Shown here: positions 2,383-21,905 of the stretch, piece after piece
How the letters are laid out: each line of letters starts with the position of its first letter
Position numbering within the stretch: the first letter of the stretch is position 1
The notes under the pieces: model-generated
Database searches by the model: none
Told to the model about the DNA's origin: nothing
The model's input: the letters and a program-made list of their open reading frames with translations, nothing else
DNA from: Limosilactobacillus coleohominis
GTDB lineage: Bacteria; Bacillota; Bacilli; Lactobacillales; Lactobacillaceae
Reading direction: 5' to 3'
Assembly: GCF_016901675.1 (NCBI RefSeq)
Contig: NZ_JACJKU010000002.1
Coordinates: 1-45,729, forward strand
DNA: 45,729 nt
Made by a program: the position numbers and the translations under genes

Positions 2383-4071
2383 ATGACTTTCGATGGTTTT
2401 TTCACCCACTCCATGGTGAAAGAATTAAATGATACATTAACTTCGGGCAAGGTCATGCGCGTTAACCAGCCCTATCCTGCAGAAATGATTATGGTGGTCC
2501 GTGCTCACCGCCATAACTACTCACTGCTTGTATCTGCTAACCCAACCTATCCCCGAATCCAAATTACTAATATTCCATATCAAAATCCCGCTGTGCCAAG
2601 CAATTTTGCTATGACAATGCGTAAATACCTTGAAGGCGCCATTATTGAATCAATCGAACAAATTAGCAATGACCGAATCGTTAAAATTAATTTTACCAAT
2701 CGGGATGAACTTGGTGACAACCAAAAACTGGTAATTTATGTTGAAATTATGGCTCGCCACAGTAACTTGTCCTTAGTTAGTGAGCCAAGCGGGAAAATTA
2801 TTGATACCATTAAGCATGTCGGTTCTGATCAAAACCGGGTTCGCATCTTACTCCCTGGCGCACCTTTTGTGATGCCGCCTAAGCAAGAGCGCACAGATCC
2901 ATACCTCCCTAACCAGAAGTATTCTGACCTGGTTAAACAAGATCAAGGCGATCTCAACAAATTAACTCGTGATTTACAACAAACATATCAGGGTCTGGCT
3001 TTCGATACTGCCAAGGAATTAGCCACTGAATTGGTAAATGCCGACAACCTACCAGCAGCGTATGAAGGATTCTTAAACAAGTTTAACAACCCAGACCCAG
3101 TTATTTACACTAACGAAAAGGGACAAACCAAATTTGCCCCATTTCCATTTGATGGAATCTCTGATGGTAAGAATCAGCATTTTGCAACATTAAGTGAGAT
3201 GCTCGATGCGTTCTATAACCAAAAAGTTGAGAATGATCGTACCAAGGAACTTGCCGGTCAGGTATTGAAAGTCGTCAAAAACGAGTTAAAGAAGGATCGT
3301 AGAAAGGTTAAAAAACTGCACCATCAGTTAGAAGAAGCTGCAGATGCAGATTATTACCGAATCCGTGGCGAAATTCTTACCACTTATATGGGAAAGTTAA
3401 AACCTGGGATGACGGAAATCGAGTTGCCAAACTTCTATGATGATAATAAACCACTGAAGATTAAATTATCTCCAGAATTATCTGCTTCGCGAAATACTCA
3501 GAAATACTTTACGAAGTACGACAAACTAAAAGCGTCAGTTGCTTACGTTAATGAGCAATTAAAGATCACACAAGACGAAATTGACTATTTTGAAAATATC
3601 CTGAGCCAAATTGATATTGCTTCGCCTGCCGATGTTCAAGATATTAAGGTGGAACTACAAGAGCAAGGCTATATTAAGCAGCGGAATCGTGGTAAAAAGA
3701 AACGGAAAGTACGGGCTAGTAAGCCTGAGCAATTCCATACTTCAGATGGTACCCTTGTATTAGTTGGTAAAAATAACCTGCAAAATGATCGACTGAGTTT
3801 TAAGACCGCTAACAAGAACGAAATTTGGCTACACGTAAAAGATATGCCAGGGTCTCATGTTGTCATTAGAAGTACTGACCCTTCTGAACAAACCATTTTA
3901 GAAGCCGCACAATTGGCTGCATATTTCTCTAAGGGACGCAATTCTGACCACGTTCCAGTTGATTACCTGCGTGTTAAACAGCTTCATAAACCTAATGGTG
4001 CCAAACCGGGATTCGTAATATTCCGCGGACAAACTACAATCAACGTGACTCCACAAAAATTGAATCACTAG
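2383..4071 (+). CDS. rqcH: Ribosome quality control protein RqcH (FbpA/NEMF family)
   Basis: A 562-residue NFACT-family protein. RqcH binds stalled 50S subunits carrying peptidyl-tRNA and recruits tRNA-Ala to add C-terminal alanine tails that mark the nascent chain for degradation. The N-terminal NFACT-N domain begins in the family manner (MTFDGFFTH). It keeps the Asp97-Arg98 pair, at the same numbering as the tRNA-recruiting DR motif of the Bacillus protein. A charged coiled-coil region covers about residues 290-420. The C-terminal NFACT-R domain includes the EIWLHVKDMPGSH motif near 480. Older annotations call these proteins fibronectin-binding FbpA. It is a single-gene unit with its own promoter, followed by a repeat-type terminator. 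Confidence 0.96.
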   Translation: MTFDGFFTHSMVKELNDTLTSGKVMRVNQPYPAEMIMVVRAHRHNYSLLVSANPTYPRIQITNIPYQNPAVPSNFAMTMRKYLEGAIIESIEQISNDRIVKINFTNRDELGDNQKLVIYVEIMARHSNLSLVSEPSGKIIDTIKHVGSDQNRVRILLPGAPFVMPPKQERTDPYLPNQKYSDLVKQDQGDLNKLTRDLQQTYQGLAFDTAKELATELVNADNLPAAYEGFLNKFNNPDPVIYTNEKGQTKFAPFPFDGISDGKNQHFATLSEMLDAFYNQKVENDRTKELAGQVLKVVKNELKKDRRKVKKLHHQLEEAADADYYRIRGEILTTYMGKLKPGMTEIELPNFYDDNKPLKIKLSPELSASRNTQKYFTKYDKLKASVAYVNEQLKITQDEIDYFENILSQIDIASPADVQDIKVELQEQGYIKQRNRGKKKRKVRASKPEQFHTSDGTLVLVGKNNLQNDRLSFKTANKNEIWLHVKDMPGSHVVIRSTDPSEQTILEAAQLAAYFSKGRNSDHVPVDYLRVKQLHKPNGAKPGFVIFRGQTTINVTPQKLNH

Positions 4072-4193: not shown

Positions 4194-6704
4194 CTAATCA
4201 ATAAACTGCATTTCCGCTCCCATCACCTTGTTAGCAGTCGGTGTTTCTTTAATCTGTAAAGCACTAAATGGAAACAGTGCCCGGTAGACTGCTGTTTGGG
4301 TTTGGTTTGCTTGCTGCTTCATCGATTTGACTAACAATTTACCACTGAATTTATTCAACGCTAATCTGGTAATTACTGCTGGCAAATCAAGCTTCAATAC
4401 TTTCGAAAGGAAAGCAATATCTGTTGCTGGCAGTGGACGGCACATTTCGATTTGATAATGATCCATTTCATCCGCCCTAATCAAGACTTGATATAAACCA
4501 GGTTTTTGCAGTATACGAACCCTTTGTTCACCAAGTTCTGTCACCTGTTTAGTGGCTGCAGGTGATGAAGTTGTAGGATAGCGTTTAGCAACCGTCCGAT
4601 AGTTCATGTGATCATCAATTTGTAAAGCGGCAGTTATTCCTAATGGATAGACATACTGACCGTCAAATAGCGCATTATATTCCAATAATGGTTCTGTACT
4701 TACAACGTCTTCAATCTGATCCTCTGTTGGAATTGGCATTAATGTGATCGTATCACCATAATGCTCTTTCAAACGCTCATACAGTTCACTCTCGTTGGAA
4801 GCAATCATTAGCATTGTTGGTTGTTCCACCCTGATAATATCCGTGATCGTTTCCACTACTAGCGGCTCAATATATAGCTTGTCGACATACAAAGAAGACA
4901 TGGCTGGCGAACTAGGATTATCATTCACCAAAATCGTTTTATTGCCATGAACTTTCAGCTCCTGCATTACCTTGCCGACAACATAATCATTAGCATTTCC
5001 ATTTCCCAAATGGCGACCACCACTACCAATTACCAAAATCGAGTGATTACTTTCCTCCACACTTTCATTTTCTAATTCAAAAGTGGAATAAAATGCATTG
5101 GTATGTTGGTCATATTCTCCGGCAGACGGATCGATTTCTTTAAATGTCCGATTAATTTGGTGCTGGTCCCTTAATTTGGCAATATCAGCGGTTTCTTCAC
5201 CCCATAACTCAGCAATTTTACCATCGCCTATTCCCCAATACTTGGCTTCTTTTAGCATCACAGGACTATCCTGCAATTTTAAAATTTCACTTTGAAGATC
5301 GATTAATCTTTTTAGTTGAGCAAAGTAATAGCTATCAATTTTGGTTAATTCAGCTAATTCTTTTTCTGAATAACCCCGTCGAATCGCCTCCAATAACGAA
5401 TAGAGACGGTCACCTTCAGGATGAATCAGAAGTTGGTCCAATTGATCATCACTAATCCGTTGGATCATTTTAATATAGCCGTTATGCCAACCTGACTGAT
5501 AGTCGGCCACTGACTTAATAATGGCTTCAATAAGGCTTCTGCCGATTCCAATCGTGCTCCCAATAGACTTCTTTTGGGTCCCCAGTTTTAATTTATGGGT
5601 ACTTAATTGATTAAAAGGAAAGACAGGCATTCGGACAGCAGTACGATCCATTACTGGTTCAGTTACCGCTGTATGTTTAGTCAACCCATGATCAAGTCGG
5701 ATATTACGCAACAATTCACCAGCATATAAATGGCCAACTACTCGACTGATTGGGTAACCAGTAGCAAGTTCAGTAAATGTGGTAATTCGGTCAAAGTAAG
5801 GGCTGTTTTTAATAACGTAGTACCGATTTTGCTCAGCATCAAAAGCAAATTGAACGTGATTAACCCCAACAATTCGTAATTTTCGGGTAATTGCAAAGGC
5901 GGTATTTCGCATATCCTGAATTTCCCGATCCAACAATGTTTGCGCAGGTAAGACTGCCATTGAATCTCCGGCATGAATCCCAATCGGATCAATATCTTCA
6001 GTCATTCCCAGCTGCATCATTGTTCCTGAAGCGTCTCTCATAACCAAAACTTCAATTTCCTTCAAACCGGCTAAACTTTGTTGAACAAGAACTTGTCCGC
6101 TACGAGATAATTGTATACCAGTACTAACGGCTTCCCGTAATTCATCTGGGTCCTGGACAATTCTCCGCATCCGCAAGGACTTAGGGAACACTGCTCGTAC
6201 TACCACTGGAAAGCCTACTTCCCGCGCCATTTCAAGTGCGGACTGATAATTATCAAATGTAGCGATCTTCTTTGTCGGTGCATCTAATCTCCGCAATGTT
6301 TGGTTAAGCAAAACCGGATTATTAACTTGTCGAATCGTGGCTTCGGGAACTCCTGAAATTTGAATATCTTGCTCAGTTAAAATCCCTGATTCACTGACAG
6401 TTTGCATAATTTCAAACGCCCGTCGTCCACCAAGGGTTGGCACGATTACTTGTGGATGGTACTGGTTGATCAGCTTAATCACACTACGACTCGTCAATGG
6501 CAAAACATGCCGACAGTCAATTGCTTCAGTCGTATCAAGTGAAGCAGAAAAAGGATTATCATCGACCAGTACGGTCATGAACCCGCCACGTTTCATGGTT
6601 GAAGCAATTTCAAGAGTAGCATAATCTAACTCCCCACCTTGTTGAAAGTTGTCACTGCCAGCACCGATAATTAAAGCAGTTGGTTTAGTGGTCAAGGGCT
6701 TCAT
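4194..6704 (-). CDS. carB: Degenerate carbamoyl-phosphate synthase large chain (CarB-like pseudoenzyme)
   Basis: 836 residues, against about 1060 in active CarB. The N-terminal pre-ATP-grasp and first ATP-grasp domains align colinearly, but key residues are lost. The EDRRRF nucleotide site reads NNPVLL (128-133). The TMGGSGGG ATP loop reads PKSLRMRR (174-181). The metal ligands Glu299 and Asn301 and Arg303 of the E. coli enzyme are Lys299, Ser301 and Tyr303. An oligomerisation-like middle (about 400-550) and a second pre-ATP-grasp region follow. Most of the second ATP-grasp domain is then missing, leaving remnants near 672-695 and 735-785 (metal-site Asn replaced by Cys755), and there is no C-terminal allosteric domain. 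The frame is intact. The ATG touches its GAGGAG ribosome binding site; a TTG at 6695 is better spaced and may be the true start. Both candidate starts overlap the end of carA. Catalysis of carbamoyl-phosphate synthesis looks impossible; the real role is unknown. Confidence 0.88.
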   Translation of the reverse strand: MKPLTTKPTALIIGAGSDNFQQGGELDYATLEIASTMKRGGFMTVLVDDNPFSASLDTTEAIDCRHVLPLTSRSVIKLINQYHPQVIVPTLGGRRAFEIMQTVSESGILTEQDIQISGVPEATIRQVNNPVLLNQTLRRLDAPTKKIATFDNYQSALEMAREVGFPVVVRAVFPKSLRMRRIVQDPDELREAVSTGIQLSRSGQVLVQQSLAGLKEIEVLVMRDASGTMMQLGMTEDIDPIGIHAGDSMAVLPAQTLLDREIQDMRNTAFAITRKLRIVGVNHVQFAFDAEQNRYYVIKNSPYFDRITTFTELATGYPISRVVGHLYAGELLRNIRLDHGLTKHTAVTEPVMDRTAVRMPVFPFNQLSTHKLKLGTQKKSIGSTIGIGRSLIEAIIKSVADYQSGWHNGYIKMIQRISDDQLDQLLIHPEGDRLYSLLEAIRRGYSEKELAELTKIDSYYFAQLKRLIDLQSEILKLQDSPVMLKEAKYWGIGDGKIAELWGEETADIAKLRDQHQINRTFKEIDPSAGEYDQHTNAFYSTFELENESVEESNHSILVIGSGGRHLGNGNANDYVVGKVMQELKVHGNKTILVNDNPSSPAMSSLYVDKLYIEPLVVETITDIIRVEQPTMLMIASNESELYERLKEHYGDTITLMPIPTEDQIEDVVSTEPLLEYNALFDGQYVYPLGITAALQIDDHMNYRTVAKRYPTTSSPAATKQVTELGEQRVRILQKPGLYQVLIRADEMDHYQIEMCRPLPATDIAFLSKVLKLDLPAVITRLALNKFSGKLLVKSMKQQANQTQTAVYRALFPFSALQIKETPTANKVMGAEMQFID

Positions 6705-7773
6705 CTCCTCGTTGGTTCATTAAATCCATAAACTCGTCAAATAACGGATCCGTTTCATCTGGACCCGGAGCGCCATCAGGGAAAAACTGGACAGAAAAGG
6801 CAGGATATTTACGATGACGTAATCCCTGAACACTATTATCCAGCATGTCAACGTAGGTCACAAACAAATTTGACCGGTTCACACTATCCCGTTTAACTTC
6901 ATAACCTTCACTTTGACTAGCATACACAATTTGGTCTGTAATAATCTCTTTGATTGGGTGATTCATTCCATGGTGTTCTACAGGCATTCTTTTTACATCA
7001 GCACCATTAGCTAAAGCAAACAACTCGTGCCCTAAACCGATGGCAAAAATTGGGACCTCATGCTCTTGCACCTCTAAAATCATCTTCAGAACACTCTTCT
7101 TCAAACTGTGCGGGTCTCCAGGACCACTAGAAAATACCACACCATCGGGGTCTAAACGCATAATTTCATCCGCCGTCGAAGTATACGGCAAAACCGTTAC
7201 GTTGCATTTCCGACGGGACAGTTCCCGTAAAATACCATTCTTCAATCCAAAGTCAACAACCACAACCGTTTTACCGACATCTGGATTTGGATATGGCTTA
7301 GGAGTAGCAACCTGGGCAACCTGCTGATTTGTTAAAACCGTTGCATGTAATTGATCAAACGCATGATCATCCGGCACCGGAACAATACTCCCCCGATTAG
7401 GCTCATTGGCAGCCCTCAGTTTGTGGACTAATGCACGGGTATCAACATTTGTAATACCCGGAATATTCATTTGTTCTAAATAATGACTTAGTCCCTGGCG
7501 ATGCTGATCATCAAATGCTGCCAAATCTCTAACAATGACTCCCTTGGCGGCAGGCACAATGGATTCATAAATATTTCGATGGATCGAAACGTTACCGACA
7601 TTCGGCTGCGTAAAAACAATGATTTGATTATCATAGATGGGGTTAGTAATGATTTCTTGGTAACCAGCCATACTAGTGTTGAACACTACTTCTCCAAAAG
7701 TTACCGCCGGAGCACCAAAGCCTTCTCCAGCAAAGACTGAACCATCTTCTAAAATTAAATAACGGGCTGTCAT
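6685..7773 (-). CDS. carA: CarA-like protein with an inactivated glutaminase site
   Basis: 362 residues, normal length for the small subunit of carbamoyl-phosphate synthase, with the N-terminal CPSase domain and the C-terminal class I glutamine amidotransferase fold both recognisable (FNTSMAGYQE near 31-40, SSGPGDP near 215-221, HHGMNHP near 267-273). The catalytic triad is gone. The nucleophile motif GICLGHQ reads AIGLGHE, so Cys is Gly246 and Gln is Glu250, and the HPE motif reads FPD (331-333), so His is Phe and Glu is Asp. Glutamine hydrolysis is therefore not expected. The start at 7773 is chosen because it matches the family N terminus and follows AGGTGGGAG; a longer frame extends upstream without support. 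It is followed directly by carB and preceded by the rluD-type gene. Confidence 0.9.
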   Translation of the reverse strand: MTARYLILEDGSVFAGEGFGAPAVTFGEVVFNTSMAGYQEIITNPIYDNQIIVFTQPNVGNVSIHRNIYESIVPAAKGVIVRDLAAFDDQHRQGLSHYLEQMNIPGITNVDTRALVHKLRAANEPNRGSIVPVPDDHAFDQLHATVLTNQQVAQVATPKPYPNPDVGKTVVVVDFGLKNGILRELSRRKCNVTVLPYTSTADEIMRLDPDGVVFSSGPGDPHSLKKSVLKMILEVQEHEVPIFAIGLGHELFALANGADVKRMPVEHHGMNHPIKEIITDQIVYASQSEGYEVKRDSVNRSNLFVTYVDMLDNSVQGLRHRKYPAFSVQFFPDGAPGPDETDPLFDEFMDLMNQRGDEALDH

Positions 7774-7819: not shown

Positions 7820-8764
7820 TTACTTTTGGTCTGGTGGTAAATCTGTAGCGTCCAAGTGATGTAACATCTGTTCAAACCACTCTGGTAATGGTGCTTCAAA
7901 AAGCATCTCCTTACCAGTTACTGGATGTTTAAAGCCCAGTAAACGAGCATGCAAATATTGTCCATTCCCCTTCAGGGTTTTCCTTGGGCCATACAAAGGA
8001 TCACCCGCTAAAGGATGACCAATGTATTGCATATGCACGCGAATCTGGTGCGTTCGACCTGTTTCAAGCCGACATGAAACTAACGTATAATGCTGGTACC
8101 GCTTCAAGACCTTAAAGTGAGTAACAGCGTGGCGACCATCCGCAACCACTGCCTGCTTTTTACGATCTTTTGGCGACCTTCCGAGTGGTGCATCAATAGT
8201 TCCCTGGTCCTCTTTGATCACACCATGAACTAATGCTACATATTCTCTCTTATTAGTTTTCGCTTTTAGCTGAGCAGCTAACGAACGATGAGCCTGATCA
8301 TTTTTAGCCACCATTAACAAACCAGATGTGTCCTTATCGATCCGATGGACTATCCCTGGGCGAAATTCTCCATTAATGTGTGATAGTGGACTGTGATACA
8401 GCAATGCATTAACCAAAGTATGATTAGGATGACCTGCTGAAGGGTGAACGACCATCCCTTGGGGTTTATTAACCACTAATACGTCATCATCTTCATAAAC
8501 GATATCTAAGGGAATGTTTTCCGGTTCCAAATCGATTTTTTGGGGTTCTTCTGGAATGACTTCCACATGATCGCCAACTTGTAATTTATATTTAGGCTTC
8601 ACTGTGGACCCATTAACAGTAATATTGCCATCCTCAATCCATTTTTTTAATTGTGACCTGGAAACGTCACTCATGACCGTTGCTAGTGCTTTGTCAATTC
8701 TTCCAGTGAGTTGGTCATCAACCGTAATTTTTTGTGGTTGCTTATTTGTCACTTGGATCCTCAT
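7820..8764 (-). CDS. RluD-type 23S rRNA/tRNA pseudouridine synthase
   Basis: 314 residues with an N-terminal S4 RNA-binding domain (about 20-75) and a RluA/RluC/RluD catalytic domain. The catalytic Asp is Asp143 in HRIDKDTSG, and the downstream GRTHQIRVH motif is intact near 240. Family enzymes isomerise uridine in large-subunit rRNA; the exact target in lactobacilli cannot be assigned by motif. The start overlaps the end of lspA by about 20 bases, and a GTG four codons later is an alternative with a ribosome binding site of its own. The lspA-rluD pair commonly stands just upstream of the pyrimidine genes in lactobacilli, which gives context to the odd carAB that follows. Confidence 0.92.
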   Translation of the reverse strand: MRIQVTNKQPQKITVDDQLTGRIDKALATVMSDVSRSQLKKWIEDGNITVNGSTVKPKYKLQVGDHVEVIPEEPQKIDLEPENIPLDIVYEDDDVLVVNKPQGMVVHPSAGHPNHTLVNALLYHSPLSHINGEFRPGIVHRIDKDTSGLLMVAKNDQAHRSLAAQLKAKTNKREYVALVHGVIKEDQGTIDAPLGRSPKDRKKQAVVADGRHAVTHFKVLKRYQHYTLVSCRLETGRTHQIRVHMQYIGHPLAGDPLYGPRKTLKGNGQYLHARLLGFKHPVTGKEMLFEAPLPEWFEQMLHHLDATDLPPDQK

Positions 8765-9224
8765 CCTTTTCCATTAATACAATTACTATTAAAATTAATA
8801 CTCCAACTGTTAAACAGGTATCTGCAATATTGAATACTGGAAAATTCACTGGTAGTAATTCAAACATATCGACGACGTAACCAAAGCGTAATCGATCAAT
8901 GAAATTACCAATGGTCCCCGCAAAAATTAAGCTTAAACTGATTTCCATCCAACGCTGGTCGCTAAACCGATGCATTAAGTAAACTAACGCAATAATTGCA
9001 ATGACACTCACCACCGCAAAAAACCATTGTTTACCTTCCATTAATGACCATGCAGCTCCGTTATTACGTAAATTGGTCAAAGCCACGATGCCTGGTAAAA
9101 ACTGCTTAAAGCCATTTTTAGGAACATTTACTGTGACCCACCATTTAACCAATTGGTCAACACCAATCAACACAATAATGAAGGTTAAGTAGCCCCACCA
9201 GCCGCGATTATTTTTCTGAATCAT
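8742..9224 (-). CDS. lspA: Lipoprotein signal peptidase (signal peptidase II)
   Basis: 160 residues with four hydrophobic membrane segments. This aspartyl peptidase cleaves the signal peptide of diacylglyceryl-modified prolipoproteins before the lipobox Cys. The family motifs are present: NNGAAWSL near 54-61, GNFIDRLRFGYVVDM with catalytic Asp119, and FNIADTCLTVG with catalytic Asp135. The length is typical. It overlaps ebsA upstream and the pseudouridine synthase gene downstream by about 20 bases each, consistent with one leftward transcript. Confidence 0.97.
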   Translation of the reverse strand: MIQKNNRGWWGYLTFIIVLIGVDQLVKWWVTVNVPKNGFKQFLPGIVALTNLRNNGAAWSLMEGKQWFFAVVSVIAIIALVYLMHRFSDQRWMEISLSLIFAGTIGNFIDRLRFGYVVDMFELLPVNFPVFNIADTCLTVGVLILIVIVLMEKDEDPSDK

Positions 9225-14966: not shown

Positions 14967-15815
14967 TTACTCCTTTACATCTTGAATAATCGTAGTTGCA
15001 TTTGGGTCAATTTCTGGGTCATCCATAATAATTTCATCAATTTTGTGAGCGTGAATGCGGCCACTAATCGGGTTCTTAACACTCATAACATTTGTTGTAA
15101 TCTCTGCATCAATGTTTTTACAGTATTCAAAAGCAAGGTCAGTCCGTAATACTTTGCAGTTTACCAACTTGATCCCATCAAGGTAACAAAGTCCCTGATC
15201 ACTTTCAATTGTGCAATTAACCAACGTTAAGTTTTTAGTATTCCAGGCTAAATATTCGCCACTAATCTTAGAGTCATAAATCGTAACATTTTCACAGTTC
15301 CAAAAAGCGTCTTTGGATACAAATCTGGAATTGTGAACCTCAATATTCTTTCCACCATCAAAACAATAGTTGCCAATCAGGTCTAAATTACCAATCCGAA
15401 TATTGGAACTATTCATTCCAAAGTAGTCACCACGAGCTTGAACATTTTTGATATCAACATCATCACATGTCCACAGGGTCTCGTCTGCATCCGAAAAGTA
15501 AACGTTCTTTAATGTAACTTCTTTACAACGACGGAAAAGCTTTGGAGCTTGCAAATCAGAATCGTGAATATTAATGTCATCCGTATACCAAATTCCTGAC
15601 CGGGACATTGTCTCGAAAATAGTATCATTAACTTCAATATGCTTTGAATACCAGAGTGGGTATTTCCAAGTAAATACTACCCCATCCAGTTTTAGGTCGT
15701 GGGTTTCTTTAAGTGGTGATTCACCCTTACCAAAAGTAGTATCAATAATTTCAGCGTTATGTTCTTTAAATAGTGGCCGTTCACCATCAAAATAGCCTTC
15801 ATTAATTTGTTTCAT
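14967..15815 (-). CDS. DUF3737 family right-handed beta-helix protein
   Basis: About 282 residues from the preferred ATG. The body consists of repeated short rungs of the form I-x-n-x-x-I/F, with many Asp, Asn, Cys and aromatic residues spaced about 20-23 apart, typical of a right-handed beta-helix, and matches the DUF3737 family as I recall it. No signal peptide or membrane segment is seen, so it should be cytosolic. Its biochemical function is unknown. Starts at 15866, 15818 and 15815 are in frame; GAGGA is spaced best for 15815, and the protein then begins MKQINEGYFDG, which fits the family. It is followed directly by the PLP enzyme, suggesting a shared metabolic or stress role. Confidence 0.85.
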   Translation of the reverse strand: MKQINEGYFDGERPLFKEHNAEIIDTTFGKGESPLKETHDLKLDGVVFTWKYPLWYSKHIEVNDTIFETMSRSGIWYTDDINIHDSDLQAPKLFRRCKEVTLKNVYFSDADETLWTCDDVDIKNVQARGDYFGMNSSNIRIGNLDLIGNYCFDGGKNIEVHNSRFVSKDAFWNCENVTIYDSKISGEYLAWNTKNLTLVNCTIESDQGLCYLDGIKLVNCKVLRTDLAFEYCKNIDAEITTNVMSVKNPISGRIHAHKIDEIIMDDPEIDPNATTIIQDVKE

Positions 15816-15871
15816 CATATTCCTCTTTTTCAAAGTTAAATTATTTTTAGTAAGTAAAGTTTCCAAATATA

Positions 15872-15900
15872 AGTATAAAACTTTTGTAATGGTTAGTGAA
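15872..15900 (-). promoter_or_regulatory. Promoter of the DUF3737-malY operon
   Basis: On the minus strand TTCACT (15900-15895) and TATACT (15877-15872) are 17 bases apart, about 55 bases before the preferred start. It faces away from the aldo/keto reductase promoter in the same intergenic region. Confidence 0.6.
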
Positions 15901-15960
15901 ATACGTTTTTTTCATAGTGGTTGATTCATTTTGATTATGGAACACTTCCAATTAATTGTT

Positions 15961-15966
15961 TATAAT
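15961..15966 (+). promoter_or_regulatory. -10 box of the aldo/keto reductase gene
   Basis: A perfect TATAAT 39 bases before the ATG, with GGGAG as ribosome binding site. The -35 region is weak, so activation by a regulator is possible. Confidence 0.5.
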
Positions 15967-16004
15967 AACAATGACATTAATCGGTATAAAGGGAGCAAAT
16001 ATAT

Positions 16005-16832
16005 ATGCATTATCTCAACATTAATGGTGAAAAGCTATCAGAAATCGGTATTGGCAGTGCAGCCCTGTCAGGAGACATCGCAGCTGAACAAAAAGCCATT
16101 CGTTATGGACTTAGTCATGGTATCAACGTGATTGACACAGCTGAAAGTTATGGTAACAGTGAGGATGTTATTGGCGATGCCTTAAAAGGAATTGACCGTG
16201 ATCAGTATTTTTTGATTTCTAAATTTTTGCCCCAACATGCAACACCACGCCTTCAACGAAAAAGTTTAGAAAAAAGTCTCCAACGATTAGGAGTTGACTA
16301 CCTCGATTTATACCTTTTACATTGGCGTGCTAACGCAGATTTACGATCAACAGTCGAAGGACTCGAACAATTGCAAAAGGAAGGTCTAATCCGTTATTGG
16401 GGAGTATCTAACTTTGACCTATCTGATATGGAAGATCTCATGAACGTCCCGAATGGTGATCACGTTTTCGCAAATGAAGATTTGTATAACTTGACTAGTC
16501 GCGGGGTTGAATTTGACCTTCTCCCGTGGCAGCACCAACATCATATCGGATTTCTGAGCTATTCTCCATTTCATGCGGTTGGTTGGAACTTTATTCAACC
16601 AAACAGTGTCATTAAGCAAATCAGCGAAGAACATCAAGTCACTCCACAACAAATTATGCTCGCTTGGATAACTCGTAACCATAATGTCTTGCCCCTACCA
16701 AAAGCTTGTAAAATCCAACACGTTCAAGATAACATTGATGCTTTAGATATCACTCTCACTGAAAACGATTTAAAGCGTCTCGATCGAGTTTATCCTGCAC
16801 CACAGCATAAAGTGCCTCTGGACAAAATCTGA
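16005..16832 (+). CDS. Aldo/keto reductase family oxidoreductase
   Basis: 275 residues with the NAD(P)H-dependent TIM-barrel fold. The catalytic tetrad is complete: Asp44 and Tyr49 in IDTAESYG, Lys73 in ISKF, and His106 in LLHW. The WGVSNF motif near 133 and the cofactor-binding LPLPKA segment near 225-230 are also present. Members reduce aldehydes and ketones; the substrate is not predictable here. It stands alone, divergent from the DUF3737-malY operon, and ends in a hairpin shared with the leftward methyltransferase gene. Confidence 0.93.
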   Translation: MHYLNINGEKLSEIGIGSAALSGDIAAEQKAIRYGLSHGINVIDTAESYGNSEDVIGDALKGIDRDQYFLISKFLPQHATPRLQRKSLEKSLQRLGVDYLDLYLLHWRANADLRSTVEGLEQLQKEGLIRYWGVSNFDLSDMEDLMNVPNGDHVFANEDLYNLTSRGVEFDLLPWQHQHHIGFLSYSPFHAVGWNFIQPNSVIKQISEEHQVTPQQIMLAWITRNHNVLPLPKACKIQHVQDNIDALDITLTENDLKRLDRVYPAPQHKVPLDKI

Positions 16833-21503: not shown

Positions 21504-21905
21504 ACCTGATATGCAGATTTCTGTAGGCCATGTTTTGTCAAAGCATAATTATCAGGTATTAATTATGCAGTGGTAATCATCTATCTCAGTGTCTTAAGAC
21601 ACTCCCCTGGAATCACTTCAATTCGTTATCCAAAGCTCCCCTACCGTAAGTTTGGGTTTACCGCTTGAGGGGTTTACCGCGTTCCATCAGCATTGTTTCC
21701 AATACTGCTTCGTCACTGTGGCACTTTTCAGGAATACTGGGGCATAGTCGAAACCTTAGCCGCTTTTTCCGCCGTCACCGGATCACCGGTGCCCCGCCTT
21801 ATCGTTTCAGCGAGCACAAACACTACGGGCATCGCAGCCCGTGCGAGCATGGACCTTCCTAACACGGCATACACCGTGCTCGATTACCCAAAACCTGCAA
21901 ATATT
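21504..21905 (-). ncRNA. rnpB: RNase P RNA, bacterial type B
   Basis: The catalytic RNA that removes 5' leaders from tRNA precursors. Conserved blocks are visible on the minus strand: GGGTAATCG near the 5' end, AGGAAGGTCCATGCTCGCAC (a core element with one or two differences from the usual GAGGAAAGTCC), AGTGCCACAGTGACG, GGAACGCGGTAAACCCC, AGATAGATGATTACC and the universal ACAGAAA near the 3' end. Short arms at the two ends (ATTTGCAG and CTGCATAT) can pair as P1. The layout, about 400 bases without the type-A P6/P16-17 features, fits the Bacillus-type form. It lies just downstream of gpsB, as in other Firmicutes. The 5' and 3' ends are estimates. Confidence 0.95.

Follow-up and report, generated by a model that had tools for sequence, protein, structure and literature searches.

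The window is the whole stretch of Limosilactobacillus coleohominis DNA that was analysed, 45,729 nucleotides in length. It encodes an adjacent pair of genes, here called carA* and carB*, that are homologous to the small and large subunits of carbamoyl-phosphate synthase (CPS). The pair and its neighbours are arranged as follows.

2383 to 4071, forward strand: gene for an RqcH/FbpA-like protein, the convergent neighbour downstream of carB*
4194 to 6704, reverse strand: carB*, a shortened CPS large-subunit homologue without the catalytic residues, 836 amino acids from ATG 6704
5796 to 5810, reverse strand: codons for K299-N300-S301-P302-Y303, which replace the metal ligands E299 and N301 and residue R303 (by alignment)
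6162 to 6185, reverse strand: codons for PKSLRMRR, residues 174-181, which replace the glycine loop of the first ATP-grasp domain (by alignment)
6685 to 7773, reverse strand: carA*, a CPS small-subunit homologue without the catalytic Cys and His, 362 amino acids from ATG 7773
6781 to 6783, reverse strand: Phe331 codon at the site of the catalytic His353 (by alignment)
7036 to 7038, reverse strand: GGT codon (Gly246) at the site of the catalytic Cys269 of E. coli CarA (by alignment)
7820 to 8764, reverse strand: gene for an RluA/RluD-family pseudouridine synthase, the upstream gene of the operon-like run
8742 to 9224, reverse strand: lspA, signal peptidase II, the first gene of the conserved run

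The carA* frame is read from ATG 7773, which is preceded by AGAGGTGGGAG; the list of open reading frames has TTG at 7899 instead. Its 3' end overlaps the start of carB*. The carB* frame is made up of 836 codons and has no internal stop in the open-frame reading of the window. It may instead start at TTG 6695, behind GAGGAG, to give 833 amino acids.

Pfam assigns to CarB* pre-ATP-grasp, ATP-grasp, and oligomerisation domains of the CPS type. Residues 8-634 align to residues 8-640 of E. coli CarB, and the numbering of Lys299 and Tyr303 is identical in the two proteins. The original prediction described an open frame of 836 residues where about 1060 are expected, and both the ORF and this alignment confirm it. 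The alignment also bears out the predicted state of the first ATP-grasp domain. The glycine loop, TMGGSGGG in E. coli CarB, is PKSLRMRR in CarB*, and the metal ligands have become Lys299 and Ser301 (E299K and N301S in E. coli numbering), to which R303Y is now added. The metal-ligand and catalytic roles given here to E299, N301, R303, and other residues are those of E. coli CPS.

The same lesions were followed through an alignment of CarB* homologues, which was reduced from 73 rows to 68. Rows dropped were the broken L085, the partial L086, L087 and L091 as intact or second copies, and L090 as a repeat of L043. Position 299 is Lys or Arg in all 68 rows, and position 303 is Tyr in 64. Asn is still found at position 301 in six rows, and residual Gly in the loop is seen at position 175 in nine rows and at 176 in four. 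Retained residues are E215 (67/68), G241 and H243 (68/68 each), and R/K169. E. coli CarB residues 681-740 have no counterpart over the 68 sequences, as expected from the predicted deletion of the N-terminal lobe of the second ATP-grasp domain; the column of R715 is a gap in every row, and residues 741-760 have a mean occupancy of 0.2. The allosteric domain, residues 941-1073, had likewise been reported missing and is absent, with an occupancy of 0-0.02.

CarB* scores below both NCBIfam CPS equivalog cut-offs, with 480.6 against 1027 and 470.7 against 599. The AlphaFold2 model of CarB* has a pLDDT of 88.3 and a pTM of 0.90, and its best match in the PDB is the large chain of E. coli CPS (TM 0.88 by query length).

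CarA* is the partner subunit, whose lesions the original prediction did not mention. Its AIGLGHE corresponds to GICLGHQ of E. coli-type CarA and to GICMGHQ of the intact copy in the host genome, and its QFFPD to QFHPD. Across 72 CarA rows, position 269 is Gly in 70, the remaining two being intact second copies; Q273 is replaced by Glu in 69 and H353 by Phe in 66. S47 is Ile or Val in 44 of 44 sequences of a set thinned at 85% identity. Without the intact L087 and L091 and the repeat L090, the 72 rows leave 69 distinct CarA* partners, all of which carry the core lesions; L122 was left out of set A2 only because its frame had been extended beyond its stop. E355D was dropped as a lesion and is not diagnostic, because the intact CarA of the same genome also has Asp at this position.

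CarA* scores above the NCBIfam cut-offs for the CPS small subunit (417.9 over 221 and 354.3 over 307.35). Its structure model is weaker than that of CarB* (pLDDT 75.3, pTM 0.56), and its best PDB matches are to E. coli CarA, with TM of 0.85-0.86. The models predict that the CPS fold and domain order are kept in both subunits. The alignments show the loss of catalytic residues in both, and CarA* is predicted on this basis to be catalytically dead like CarB*.

The gene order lspA-rluD-[pyrR]-carA*-carB* is conserved, with rqcH convergent where found. The rluD gene lies upstream of the pair in 48 of 50 Limosilactobacillus regions and in 20 of 20 other regions, and rqcH falls within the fetched stretch in 35 of the 50 and 13 of the 20, respectively. 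In L. plantarum EGD-AQ4, the identities of LspA, RluD, PyrB, and the PyrR beside carA* are backed by NCBIfam; other pyr genes were named by eye. In one region, that of G034 (L068), the genes are packed back to back on the forward strand, almost without gaps, and their order is reversed. The stretch resembles a concatenation of coding sequences, and its gene order is therefore not trusted. An Rfam scan and a PyrR-element search of the window gave no PyrR RNA element, and the sole Rfam match over threshold is RNase P class B RNA at 21519-21895 on the reverse strand. Megablast of positions 15000-16500 of the window against plasmids gave no match.

Short carB* frames are open in 48 of 50 Limosilactobacillus genomes, including G040, which matches only over 60-820. 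The exceptions are G015, where part of the gene lies at a contig end, and G009, where it is in pieces with a stop. In G009 (contig C4; L085, L091) the short CarB and a second CPS large subunit are both in pieces. Because the second copy is also fragmented, G009 is probably a poor assembly.

A profile built from 26 sequences was searched against 396 Lactobacillaceae genomes. It sets short CarB, with best E-values no higher than 1e-238, apart from the remaining genomes, which scored about 1e-177 to 1e-225 or were not matched. Short CarB orthologues with the core lesions are found in 21 of the 40 genera of the family and in 227 of 229 listed genomes of those genera, as tallied by hand from per-genome E-values with two no-match genomes outside the list. 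The two genomes of carrier genera without it are G217, which is 76% complete, and G330, which has a fragment with a stop and 7% contamination. In 23 genomes from 16 of the 19 non-carrier genera, CarB frames are of intact length (1056-1083 codons), except for a second frame of 861 codons in G077 and a frame of 643 codons in G070. The genera g9, g27, and g35 gave no CarB profile match at 1e-160. An order-wide sample of 295 genomes from 74 genera gave 23 matches at an E-value of 1e-228, every one in Lactobacillaceae.

Named carriers are Limosilactobacillus, Levilactobacillus, Secundilactobacillus, Furfurilactobacillus, Lactiplantibacillus, Weissella, Periweissella, Fructobacillus, Pediococcus, Fructilactobacillus, and one uncultured Lactobacillus. 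All 18 named loci, from 10 genera, have frames of 826-869 codons, Lys or Arg at position 299, and Gly for the CarA Cys. In G285 (C1:796331-798787) the profile match spans one TAA, and CarB* ends slightly early relative to the model.

Strong purifying selection acts on both subunits. In 13 comparisons of closely related Limosilactobacillus, CarB* has a dN/dS of 0.026-0.099 (10 informative pairs) and CarA* one of 0.007-0.065 (11 pairs), the same range as for rluD and rqcH. The three pairs unused for CarB* are two that are saturated and the near-identical L081/L082, where a value of 0.5 comes from a handful of changes. For five pairs from other genera only pN/pS is given, because synonymous sites are saturated. 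CarA* lies below rluD in all five, and CarB* is near the values of its neighbours except in L125/L126, where it exceeds rluD (0.37 against 0.25). Mean column identity is 71% for CarA* and 48% for CarB*. For a set of 21 CPS pocket positions, conservation exceeds that of columns drawn at random from the same half (20,000 draws, p 0.0001); a second list of 10 positions, picked with the data in view, is not counted here. The original prediction proposed that a pseudo-CPS had been kept by selection for another function, and the orthologues in 21 genera and the low dN/dS of carB*, which confirms selective retention, support this.

Among the sampled rows, CarA*-CarB* has a single origin in Lactobacillaceae. 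In a maximum-likelihood tree, the 34 CarA* rows of Lactobacillaceae, of which two come from a single locus, group together with 100/100 support. Their clade branches among the CarA of Lactobacillales, next to those of Enterococcus and of the pyr operons of Lactobacillaceae. One faulty row, L135_8520, runs past its stop and groups with its own locus. The 18 CarB* rows of a second maximum-likelihood tree lie on one side of a branch, also with 100/100 support. Two streptococci have an intact CPS that is also downstream of rluD and pyrR. Because of this shared synteny, CarA*-CarB* is probably the CPS of an ancestral rluD-pyrR-pyr operon that was left in place.

Five CarA rows labelled as Cys-less fall outside the CarA* clade and belong to other phyla or families. 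Cys-less CarA outside Lactobacillaceae was seen at L158, L161, L187 (Rikenellaceae), L200 (Syntrophomonadaceae), L191 (uncultured Firmicutes), L175, and L182. Their motifs are GxGLGHQ, AAGLGHE (in L191), GLSLGYQ, and GIGLGYQ, and the CarB matches beside them are of ordinary length except at L200, where the contig ends. It is possible that these loci encode ammonia-dependent CPS.

In 17 of 20 regions outside Limosilactobacillus, carA* is immediately preceded by pyrR, with a gap of 29-129 bases from the end of the match. The three exceptions are all of g3 (Paucilactobacillus, 0/3), and the order pyrR-carA*-carB* is thus found in 17 of 17 examined regions outside these two genera. In Limosilactobacillus, the genus of the window, pyrR is adjacent to the pair in 0 of 49 regions. 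At least one PyrR is encoded in all 25 genomes examined. In a PyrR tree, one branch (95/90) separates two groups. The first contains the 29 PyrR rows that neighbour carA*, as well as two PyrR on long branches whose genes head pyr operons of Limosilactobacillus. The second contains L. plantarum PyrR1 and the remaining Limosilactobacillus and Paucilactobacillus PyrR. Limosilactobacillus genomes G001, G014, and G031 have only a PyrR of this other, PyrR1-type clade, and the pair therefore cannot depend strictly on a PyrR2-type partner.

The L. plantarum strain EGD-AQ4 has two pyrR genes, one heading pyrR-B-C-Aa-Ab-D-F-E and the other in lspA-rluD-pyrR-carA*-carB*. In PMC7911632, lp_1782 of L. plantarum WCFS1 is given as pyrR2 and lp_2704 as pyrR1. 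PyrR1 and PyrR2 both control the pyr operon, PyrR2 doing so by inorganic carbon, according to PMC3582564; the titles of papers from the Bringel group agree with such control by PyrR2. Because the other L. plantarum pyrR heads the pyr operon, the copy immediately before carA*-carB* is PyrR2 by exclusion, which places the pair beside the PyrR1/PyrR2 system. Loss of pyrR2 reportedly makes strains high-CO2-requiring. The L. plantarum operon is also said to have been written pyrR1BCAa1Ab1DFE, and the dead pair may therefore already be named pyrAa2/pyrAb2. A literature search gave no pointer to lactobacilli having a second CPS pair or a dead one, a weak negative, or to a dead CPS pair acting in the PyrR1/PyrR2 system.

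CarA*-CarB* is tentatively read as a conserved pseudo-synthase that serves as a ligand-sensing regulatory complex, most likely acting with PyrR. We infer the regulatory role: the pair is widely retained, mostly beside pyrR, and is therefore probably a sensor or regulator. The sequences show that CarA* has lost the glutaminase centre, and CarB* both the first ATP/metal site and the active site of the second ATP-grasp domain. The changes C269G, Q273E, S47I/V, and H353F in CarA and E299K/R and R303Y in CarB are largely fixed replacements and not scattered damage. Because of this, and because E215, G241, H243, and R/K169 are kept, the pockets have probably been rebuilt and would bind a ligand without metal or turnover. 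The ligand-bound state may then be passed to PyrR, which would act on the pyrimidine genes, as the position of the pair and PyrR2 biology suggest. In L. plantarum, the pair is a candidate reporter of inorganic carbon, a nucleotide, or carbamoyl phosphate to PyrR2. A bolder version is doubtful. It holds that a two-subunit enzyme was converted in place to a sensor, that a CPS substrate or product is read in a metal-free pocket where Lys299 replaces the metal, and that the signal goes to PyrR, the pair supplying the inorganic-carbon sensor still missing from PyrR2-dependent control of pyr genes in L. plantarum.

Limosilactobacillus, with its pyrR elsewhere, is a real difficulty for a PyrR partner. 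The Asn kept at position 301 in six CarB* rows, the residual loop Gly, the raised pN/pS of CarB* in L125/L126, and the lack of a PyrR RNA element in the window also count against the preferred reading. The shared position of the pair and pyrR may be mere inheritance from the old pyr operon, and a pseudoenzyme role unrelated to PyrR, e.g., as a scaffold, is a genuine if somewhat unlikely possibility. The pair is kept in Limosilactobacillus and g3 without an adjacent pyrR and where only a PyrR1-type gene remains, and rluD lies upstream of it in nearly all regions; the presence of PyrR in all 25 genomes and the unbroken order in the 17 regions speak for a PyrR link. An enzyme with altered chemistry would fit the intact frames and the pockets conserved in changed form. 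It is improbable given the loss of the glutaminase Cys and His, the glycine loop, and the start of the second ATP-grasp domain, the change of E299 to Lys, and a CarB* score far under the 1027-bit cut-off. Decay of the gene or an assembly artefact is scarcely credible. The broken copies in G009 and G330 would suit it, yet the second CPS copy of G009 is in pieces as well, and conservation in the 227 listed genomes with dN/dS far below 1 rules it out.

Two further roles would tie the pair to carbamoyl phosphate itself. Like inactive paralogues in other systems, it could join intact CPS (CarAB or PyrAaAb) as a regulatory or decoy subunit and tune it, as the kept fold and oligomerisation domain would allow and as the intact CPS of many carrier genomes would permit. 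This is quite improbable. Ten Limosilactobacillus genomes that are at least 99% complete have CarB* and no intact CarB (G001, G002, G004, G012, G014, G031, G035, G038, G048, and G049), and 22 of 24 g15 genomes have only one CarB match at an E-value of 1e-160, with at most two candidates scored per genome. Since the pair occurs in genomes without intact CPS, helping an active CPS is ruled out as its sole function. The ten CPS-less genomes all have arcA (arginine deiminase) and nine have PyrB, so carbamoyl phosphate derived from arginine may feed their pyrimidine synthesis, and the pair could handle it or channel it to PyrB. Such a role is highly improbable, as the genome of the window has no arcA match and G224 (g15) keeps the pair although it gave neither an arcA match nor a PyrB match over the cut-off, and only one match to CarB. 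G224 rules out carbamoyl-phosphate handling as the sole function. Because the CPS-less genomes and G224 keep the pair, neither de novo pyrimidine synthesis nor an active CPS seems to be required for what it does. The two PyrR elements of G224 lie ahead of permease-like genes and one nucleoside-processing-like gene, all named by eye.

The closest known system is glutamine-dependent CPS (CarAB or PyrAa-PyrAb), which shares the fold of both subunits, the gene order A-B, and common descent. Unlike CarAB, the pair lacks the glutaminase nucleophile and His, the first ATP/metal site, the start of the second ATP-grasp domain, and the allosteric domain. Human CPS1, the next-closest PDB fold to the two models after E. 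coli CPS, is ammonia-dependent and has a glutaminase part without the catalytic Cys. It is an active enzyme that keeps both ATP-grasp sites, whereas CarB* keeps neither. HisZ is an inactive histidyl-tRNA-synthetase paralogue that regulates ATP phosphoribosyltransferase. It resembles the pair by analogy only, as an enzyme paralogue without catalysis that is kept as a regulatory subunit; fold and pathway are unrelated.

If the proposed function of CarA*-CarB* as a sensor acting with PyrR is correct, a candidate sensor is named for the inorganic-carbon response of lactic acid bacteria. Even with another role, CPS-like genes in about half of the Lactobacillaceae genera should not make carbamoyl phosphate. 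CarA* passes the NCBI cut-off for the CPS small subunit, and metabolic models and auxotrophy predictions that count such genes may therefore err. It would be unusual for a pseudoenzyme complex to be so large, to have two dead subunits, and still to be retained almost universally.

Two minor observations concern other pyrR genes. A pyrR-pyrF-pyrE-like run in G000 (C207; L277) has PyrR elements before and after pyrR, with weak scores. The genome's own pyr operon (C162) carries a second PyrR, which is very divergent and belongs to the other clade.
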